NCBI GenBank assembly: GCA_024734555.1 | Contig: JANPWX010000613.1 | Location: forward strand, 785,918 to 849,917 | Source of the DNA: Trochalopteron elliotii | Taxonomy: Eukaryota; Chordata; Aves; Passeriformes; Leiothrichidae | Direction: 5' to 3' | DNA length: 64,000 nt | Part shown: positions 62,818-63,522 of the stretch, piece after piece | Layout of the letters: each line of letters starts with the position of its first letter | Position numbering within the stretch: the stretch's first letter is position 1 | The notes under the pieces: generated by a model | The model's database searches: none | What the model was told of the DNA's origin: nothing | Seen by the model: the letters and a program-made list of their open reading frames with translations, nothing else | Program-made: the position numbers and the translations under genes

Positions 62818-63129
62818 CTACTGCTGCTCAGTCTTGACATGGTCTCCAAACATCCGACGGTGATACGTGGCCAGGAAGATGTCATTGTCTTGGGGGCAGT
62901 CATAGTGGCAGGAGCACATCTTGATGAACATCATCTTCCTCTGGAAGAAGTCCCCCTCAGGGCAGCGGAACTCCACATCCACGGTGCTGGTCAGGAATGG
63001 GGTGCAGCAGCGCCCGTCCGAGCAGCTGCCGCAGAACCGGGGCCGGTAGGAGTGAGTGCTGGTGCATCCCGAAAACTCAAAGTGGAGGCTCTGGCGCTGC
63101 TTTGGGGTCCGCACACACTTCTTCCCCTT
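62818..63129 (-). CDS. CCN-family matricellular protein, terminal CT (cystine-knot) exon
   Basis: The last exon opens after CCCTAG as AAGGGGAAGAAGTGT (KGKKC), joins the TSP1 exon in phase 0 and stops at 62818-62820, giving 103 codons plus stop. It holds ten cysteines in CT-module spacing: SGCTSTHSYRPRFCGSC, DGRCCTP, VEFRCPEG, MMFIKMCSCHYDCP. DNDIF and the MFGD stretch are close to CCN2 (DNDIF, MYGD). The C-terminus is about five residues longer (HVKTEQQ) than in CCN2 as I recall it. RTPK, FEFSGCTS and VEF favour CCN2. The divergence is too great for an avian CCN2 orthologue, so I leave the symbol empty; a CCN2-like or CCN1-like paralogue is the likely identity. Confidence 0.93.
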   Translation of the reverse strand, partial: KGKKCVRTPKQRQSLHFEFSGCTSTHSYRPRFCGSCSDGRCCTPFLTSTVDVEFRCPEGDFFQRKMMFIKMCSCHYDCPQDNDIFLATYHRRMFGDHVKTEQQ

Positions 63130-63320
63130 CTAGGGAGAGAGCAGATGGATTAACATGGACATGACAGGAAAGATGCACTGAAGCCTGTGCTCTGACCCCA
63201 TTACTGGGCAATGGGACACAGAGGAAGTGGAAGCACAGAGCAAACCCTGTGAGCCAAGATCATTCCCAAGGCTGTCCTTGGCATTTGGGGTGCTGTGTCC
63301 CATCTCCTCTAGCACCGTAC
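63130..63320 (-). other. Intron between CCN TSP1 and CT exons
   Basis: A 191-base intron, GT at 63320-63319 and AG at 63131-63130, phase 0. The position between TSP1 and CT modules is the conserved one for CCN genes. Confidence 0.9.
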
Positions 63321-63522
63321 CTTGTTTTTCTCCATGGAGAAGTGGCAGGGCCGGACCATGCAGAGCCGGGTCTCCTTCTCCAGGTGGCACTGGGGGTTGT
63401 TGTTGGTCACGCGGGTGGAGATGCCCATTCCACAGCTCTGGGAGCACATGCTCCACTCTGTGGTCTGCACCAGGCAGTTCTCCTGCAGGTTGTTCAGCTC
63501 CGGCTTGTGAGCTGGATCCTCC
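63321..63522 (-). CDS. CCN-family matricellular protein, TSP1-module exon
   Basis: CCN proteins are secreted matrix regulators built as IGFBP, VWC, TSP1 and CT modules, one exon each. This 202-base exon (acceptor TTTTCAG, donor AACAAG then GTACGG) codes a TSP1 module: NCLVQTTEWSMCSQSCGMG, then ISTRVTNNNPQCHLEK, then TRLCMVRPC. It has six cysteines, the WSxCSxxCG motif and the NCLVQTTEW start seen in CCN2. The first base completes a codon of an exon beyond the window, and the exon ends in phase 0. MVRPC points to the CCN2/CCN3 branch rather than CCN1 (EVRPC). The IGFBP and VWC exons must lie to the right. Confidence 0.93.

Follow-up and report, generated by a model that had tools for sequence, protein, structure and literature searches.

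The 3' end of the window, by which we mean the whole 64,000 nucleotide stretch of Trochalopteron elliotii DNA analysed here (contig C560), carries the last two exons of a seventh CCN gene, located beside EPB41. This observation is confirmed, and the interpretation given to it in an earlier sequence-only reading is supported by the analysis. The gene, already annotated in databases as CCN2-like or ccn2b and here called CCN2b, is very probably a working gene and, together with CCN2, CCN3 and CCN5, one of four copies derived from two whole-genome doublings before the jawed vertebrates.

CCN2b follows the plan of the CCN family, with signal peptide, IGFBP, VWC, TSP1 and CT encoded one module per exon, all on the minus strand. 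Exon 5 (62818..63129) encodes the CT (cystine-knot) module and the stop codon TAG, and is defined by a Pfam Cys_knot match (50 bits, E 4e-13), the acceptor ccctag/AAG and the reading frame; its sequence had no match in PDB at a threshold of 1e-3. Exon 4 (63321..63529, 209 bp) encodes the TSP1 module and is defined by the TSP1_CCN profile (74.2 bits, E 1e-20), its splice sites and assembly. The CDS read from the exon coordinates places between them the GT-AG intron 4 (63130..63320, 191 bp), and upstream the GT-AG intron 3 (63530-64491, 962 bp), whose 3' part 63530..64000 is in the window. Beyond the window, in coordinates extended from it, are exon 3 (VWC, 252 bp, 64492-64743), exon 2 (IGFBP, 68577-68790) and exon 1 (signal peptide, 74600-74662), the last recognised by its likeness to P0010. 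The IGFBP and VWC modules were identified by alignment to CCN relatives, while the Pfam matches cover exons 4 and 5. The resulting CDS has 1050 bases, i.e. 349 codons and a single stop, and all four introns (5809, 3833, 962 and 191 bases) are GT-AG. Aligned to the bird's own CCN2, the protein is 60% identical over 320 residues and keeps all 38 of the 38 cysteine positions.

The sequence-only reading had described the TSP1 and CT exons as coding for an intact-looking CCN protein with CCN2-like motifs, and had pointed to IGFBP and VWC exons further upstream. The Pfam matches and the whole five-exon frame bear out the first statement, the motifs NCLVQTTEW, RTPK and DNDIF are all found in the translation, and both upstream exons were recovered beyond the window, the gene being whole. 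The start of its CT exon at 62818 is retained; the end of its TSP1 exon is moved from 63522 to the true end at 63529, seven bases further. A word scan of the 1 kb that precedes the start codon, compared with 500 base shuffles, found a single TATA-like word near -99 (0.55 expected), one CATTCC (0.31 expected), one SMAD word (1.88 expected) and five SOX-type words (4.11 expected), and no GGAATG, CArG or AP-1 words. On these counts no regulation is claimed.

Searching the genome with the TSP1_CCN profile gave seven strong loci (68.7 to 76.8 bits) and two weak matches on C202 and C49 (33 and 30.7 bits), which were taken as other TSP1 proteins. By alignment, the other six CCN loci are CCN2 (C610), CCN3 (C13, 3.84 Mb), CCN1 (C72), CCN4 (C13, 9.42 Mb), CCN6 (C88) and CCN5 (C261); since CCN1 to CCN6 all sit elsewhere in the same genome, the window gene is the seventh. 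The names CCN2, CCN3 and CCN5 follow from placement among named relatives in the 57-row tree described below, while the loci that we take to be CCN1, CCN4 and CCN6 were named by known family traits. The IGFBP exons of CCN3 and CCN4 were not found in the genome stretches searched and their rows are therefore partial. In the CCN5 locus the profile search gave no CT match.

A database search with the joined protein returned 588 proteins at E <= 1e-20. The best 120 of these 588 were listed and assigned to reference groups by their highest BLAST score, each row being a cluster under the name of its representative, which gave 83 CCN2b-type and 37 CCN2 rows. The CCN2b-type rows among the best 120 include, for the tetrapods, birds, crocodiles, turtles, tuatara, lizards, snakes, two caecilians and the axolotl and, for the fishes, lungfish, coelacanth, one named shark, chimaera, bichir, sturgeon, gar, bowfin and teleosts; three of the 83 are nameless. 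Relatives from cartilaginous fish to birds rule out a teleost-only or a bird-only copy. Within the same best 120 of 588, none of the 83 CCN2b-type representatives has a mammal or frog name, and mammals are named in 13 of the 37 CCN2 rows and nowhere else. The listed relatives extend to 431 bits, and since the CCN2b rows of shark (484) and chimaera (457) exceed this value, a full-length mammalian CCN2b would be expected among the best 120 of 588. The representative names in these best 120 thus make it highly likely that mammals have lost CCN2b; a short or fast-evolving mammalian copy could be among the remaining 468 matches. The earlier statement that the gene was kept in birds and lost in mammals is supported for its mammalian half (0 of 83 rows, best 120 of 588) and falls for the implied peculiarity of birds, as the group reaches cartilaginous fish.

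Frogs may also have lost CCN2b, because frog CCN3 and CCN5 are present in the same database. An amphibian 'CCN2-like' protein without the VWC module is mentioned in a passage of PMC6610741, and this could be the frog copy of CCN2b. The database names of proteins in the CCN2b group are CCN2-like, CCN2b, CTGF factor and CCN3. Many bird and reptile UniProt entries of the group (e.g. P0019, P0029, P0035) are labelled 'CCN family member 3'; those rows with this label that were put in trees grouped in CCN2b, apart from the CCN3 clade. The CCN2b models of hawfinch, zebra finch and flycatcher (P0016, P0025, P0049) are missing cysteines or CT parts, which reflects either model errors or gene decay in some songbirds.

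For the phylogenetic analysis, rows were hand-picked for taxon spread, 45 from the best 120 of 588 and 25 from a second list of 120 proteins, not all being included in every tree. The 52-row tree, with one row each for CCN3, CCN4, CCN5 and CCN6 (CCN4 and CCN6 being in this tree only), separated CCN2, CCN2b, CCN3 and CCN5 from CCN1, CCN4 and CCN6 at 99/97, and the CCN2b rows fell into three pieces at a multifurcation. In the 48-row tree, without CCN3, CCN4, CCN5 and CCN6, CCN2 (17 rows) and CCN2b (30 rows) were split at 99/94. The 57-row tree, in which the bird's own CCN1 is the sole outgroup row, showed four groups, with CCN2 at 99/94, CCN3 at 100/99 and CCN5 at 100/100; support for the CCN2b clade as a whole was 80/95 with 48 rows and 81/98 with 57 rows. 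Between them, these two trees place the window gene outside the CCN2, CCN3 and CCN5 groups and separate from CCN1. The earlier judgement that the protein is too different to be avian CCN1, CCN2 or CCN3 is thereby supported, given the six other loci in the genome and the rejection of a CCN2 placement (p 5.8e-39).

A duplication after the split of cartilaginous fish was modelled by moving the bony-vertebrate CCN2b next to CCN2, leaving three cartilaginous rows outside, and was rejected with p 0.003, a value which presumes that the group was named before the tree was seen. The split between CCN2 and CCN2b therefore looks older than the living jawed vertebrates; in the trees, which include no cartilaginous-fish CCN2, the cartilaginous fish are represented by a shark, a chimaera and an unnamed protein, all of them CCN2b. 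CCN3 and CCN5 were paired at 91/91 in the 57-row tree. In the AU tests of the pairings, CCN2b with CCN3 was the only one with a p below 0.05 (p 0.038), the values for the others being 0.197 for CCN2 with CCN2b, 0.239 for CCN2 with CCN3, 0.242 for CCN2b with CCN5 and 0.076 for CCN2 with CCN5.

CCN2b adjoins EPB41 (protein 4.1R) in this genome. A FERM exon of EPB41 is found in the window at 4022..4243 on the minus strand, as CCN2b is, and its 5' side faces that gene; it was recognised by a FERM_M match (C560:789939-790160) and by its best PDB matches. These are protein 4.1 (143 bits) and 4.1R (141 bits), ahead of band 4.1-like 3 (126.5 bits); the PDB listing has no 4.1-like 1 or 2 chain, so that identity is set against 4.1-like 3 alone. 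These matches agree with the neighbour proposed by the sequence-only reading. On C560 the order is a MAM exon at 610 kb (minus), TMEM200 at 743 kb (plus), the 4.1 gene at 755-790 kb (minus), to which a further exon at 798 kb presumably belongs by its motif, CCN2b at 848.7-860.6 kb (minus) and a YTH gene at 950 kb (plus). C610 carries CCN2 at 398 kb (plus), two ENPP genes at 431-510 kb (minus), a 4.1 gene at 836-867 kb (plus) and TMEM200 at 1029 kb (minus), the contig ending at 1040 kb. When C560 is turned round, the CCN, 4.1 and TMEM200 genes of the two contigs of this one genome have the same order and the same three orientations. The proposal of a matching CCN copy beside EPB41 agrees with this arrangement, in which CCN2b, EPB41 and TMEM200 mirror CCN2, its 4.1 gene and TMEM200. 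Human CCN2 is at 6q23 near EPB41L2, and human EPB41 at 1p35.

Neighbour families duplicated in parallel with CCN are 4.1, TMEM200, MAM, EYA and ENPP. C261 carries EYA at 0.66-0.69 Mb, CCN5 at 1.15 Mb and a PTP mu-like MAM gene at 3.75 Mb; C13 carries CCN3 at 3.84 Mb and ENPP at 3.90-3.93 Mb; C91 carries MAM at 2.21 Mb, TMEM200 at 2.96 Mb and a 4.1 gene at 3.16-3.19 Mb. No CCN match was found on C91, the third 4.1/TMEM200/PTP set, and CCN3 is consequently tied to the quartet here only via ENPP. A fourth 4.1 gene is on C387. Of the six MAM loci (L046-L051) two were compared with PDB, the exons of C261 and C91, which match PTP mu with 159 and 160 bits, and the MAM exons on C560 and C192 were assessed by visual inspection. 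The EYA pieces score below the whole-protein cut-off of the model, as single exons do. Which members of the 4.1, TMEM200, PTPR, EYA, ENPP and YTH families the remaining neighbours represent is assumed from human gene order. According to a passage of PMC2865548, chicken chromosomes 2, 3, 20 and 23 form a fourfold paralogy whose families include EPB41, EYA and PTPR; CCN is not in that passage.

Identity of 60% to the bird's own CCN2, and CCN2 being the next group after CCN2b among the best 120 of 588 relatives, could suggest an ordinary avian CCN1, CCN2 or CCN3 orthologue or a recent CCN2 copy in birds; with the six other loci matching CCN1 to CCN6, the placement of the bird's CCN2b within CCN2 rejected in the 48-row tree at an AU p of 5.8e-39 (a cost of 83.65 log units), and relatives in shark, chimaera, coelacanth and lungfish, such an explanation is left with hardly any probability. 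A retrocopy or a decaying pseudogene, for which the songbird models P0016, P0025 and P0049 without some cysteines or CT parts could speak, is very improbable, since the gene of this bird has five exons, 349 open codons and every one of the 38 cysteines; the argument against a retrocopy that had already been drawn from the introns holds, there being four GT-AG introns in one open frame. An old small-scale duplicate of CCN2, predating the jawed vertebrates and not derived from genome doubling, has in its favour that the pairing tests single out no branching order among CCN2, CCN2b, CCN3 and CCN5. It is nevertheless unlikely, as a 4.1 gene and TMEM200 lie beside both CCN2 and CCN2b in matching order and orientation and as a fourfold paralogon has been published, for the families named in the relevant passage of PMC2865548.

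According to the origin by genome doubling, an ancestral CCN gene would have been quadrupled in two early vertebrate doublings to give CCN2, CCN2b, CCN3 and CCN5, and the quartet of regions carrying these copies would also hold the EPB41, PTPR, EYA and opioid-receptor families. A motif scan for opioid receptors found none in 140 kb around CCN2b, so that OPRD1 has no assigned place here. The doubling relatives of CCN2b thus probably include CCN3 and CCN5 besides CCN2. It is fairly likely that the whole of the following holds jointly: the four genes are a complete 2R set; CCN2b was kept in cartilaginous and ray-finned fish, coelacanth, lungfish, caecilians, salamanders, reptiles and birds and lost in mammals, perhaps also in frogs; and the CT module of CCN5 was lost stepwise in land vertebrates. 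Coelacanth CCN5 retains a Pfam-marked CT module, and caecilian and frog CCN5 have a reduced one (P0184, P0190, P0224). From these sequences the CT loss looks stepwise; according to PMC6610741, every vertebrate CCN5 is without the CT module.

CCN2b has the five-exon plan, the four modules and the 38 cysteines in common with CCN2 (CTGF), from which it differs by its separate clade and by having EPB41 as its neighbour. The amniote CCN2b proteins P0010, P0012, P0018 and P0019 have, unlike CCN2, a short extra tail past the CT module. CCN3 (NOV) and CCN5 (WISP2) group with CCN2 and CCN2b while forming clades of their own, and in this genome CCN3 is near ENPP and CCN5 near EYA and a PTP-type MAM gene. 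The 252 bp of the VWC exon are the size that PMC6610741 calls invariant in vertebrates; the TSP1 exon has 209 bp versus 212 in the same source. Zebrafish ccn2b (CTGF-c19) is the same gene by name: gar, bichir and several teleost proteins named CCN2b fall in the group, and the zebrafish protein itself is not a named row of the trees.

In CCN proteins, growth factors of the BMP/TGF-beta type are ligands of IGFBP and VWC, and the partners of TSP1 and CT are receptors and matrix sugars. The four modules of CCN2b would act in the same way. By analogy, from the modules and from expression in zebrafish, CCN2b is with good confidence predicted to be secreted via its signal peptide and to act in the matrix like CCN2, in embryonic cartilage, notochord and eye. 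According to PMC3133677, the tissues that express CTGF-c19 are posterior notochord, pharyngeal arches, ethmoid plate, retina and lens; pectoral fin buds do not express it but do express CTGF-c20, as do heart and floor plate. CTGF-c19 is ccn2b by elimination, because CCN2a and CTGF-c20 have an accession number in common. In zebrafish ewsa mutants, which have a cartilage defect, ctgfa and ctgfb are both raised, ctgfb being no longer different at 3 days, and Ewsa binds the promoters of both genes (PMC4305327, in part). In the fin ccn2b is high at rest and falls more than sixfold after amputation, as stated in an excerpt of PMC12923738, the species by this reading being Polypterus. These fish expression studies point to shared and divided work of CCN2b with CCN2; in mammals CCN2 would take over the role of CCN2b.

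CCN2 is heavily studied in fibrosis and cartilage growth. A literature search, with most subscription papers outside its reach, found no account of the origin of CCN2b or of its loss in mammals. PMC3133677 ascribes the extra zebrafish CTGF to teleost tetraploidization, an idea repeated in PMC4579636, as against the origin before the cartilaginous-fish split indicated by the tree, and PMC6610741 finds all six CCNs consistently in land vertebrates and no neighbourhoods common to CCN genes. If the origin by genome doubling is true, it corrects these statements of PMC6610741 and PMC3133677 and unites CCN2, CCN3 and CCN5 as copies of one doubled gene. Results on CCN2 in zebrafish and chick would then need to be read with an ancient second CCN2-type gene, absent in mammals, and CCN2 knock-outs in mouse could not be compared directly with those in fish or chick, since mammals are without the sister gene. 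Differences in scarring and regeneration would gain a concrete candidate gene.

Two further features are present in the window. The 3' flank of CCN2b at 62150-62350 resembles the terminal part of an avian CR1 retroelement. A run of 346 N at 59426-59771 is a gap or a withheld stretch, and a lone N is found at 40490.
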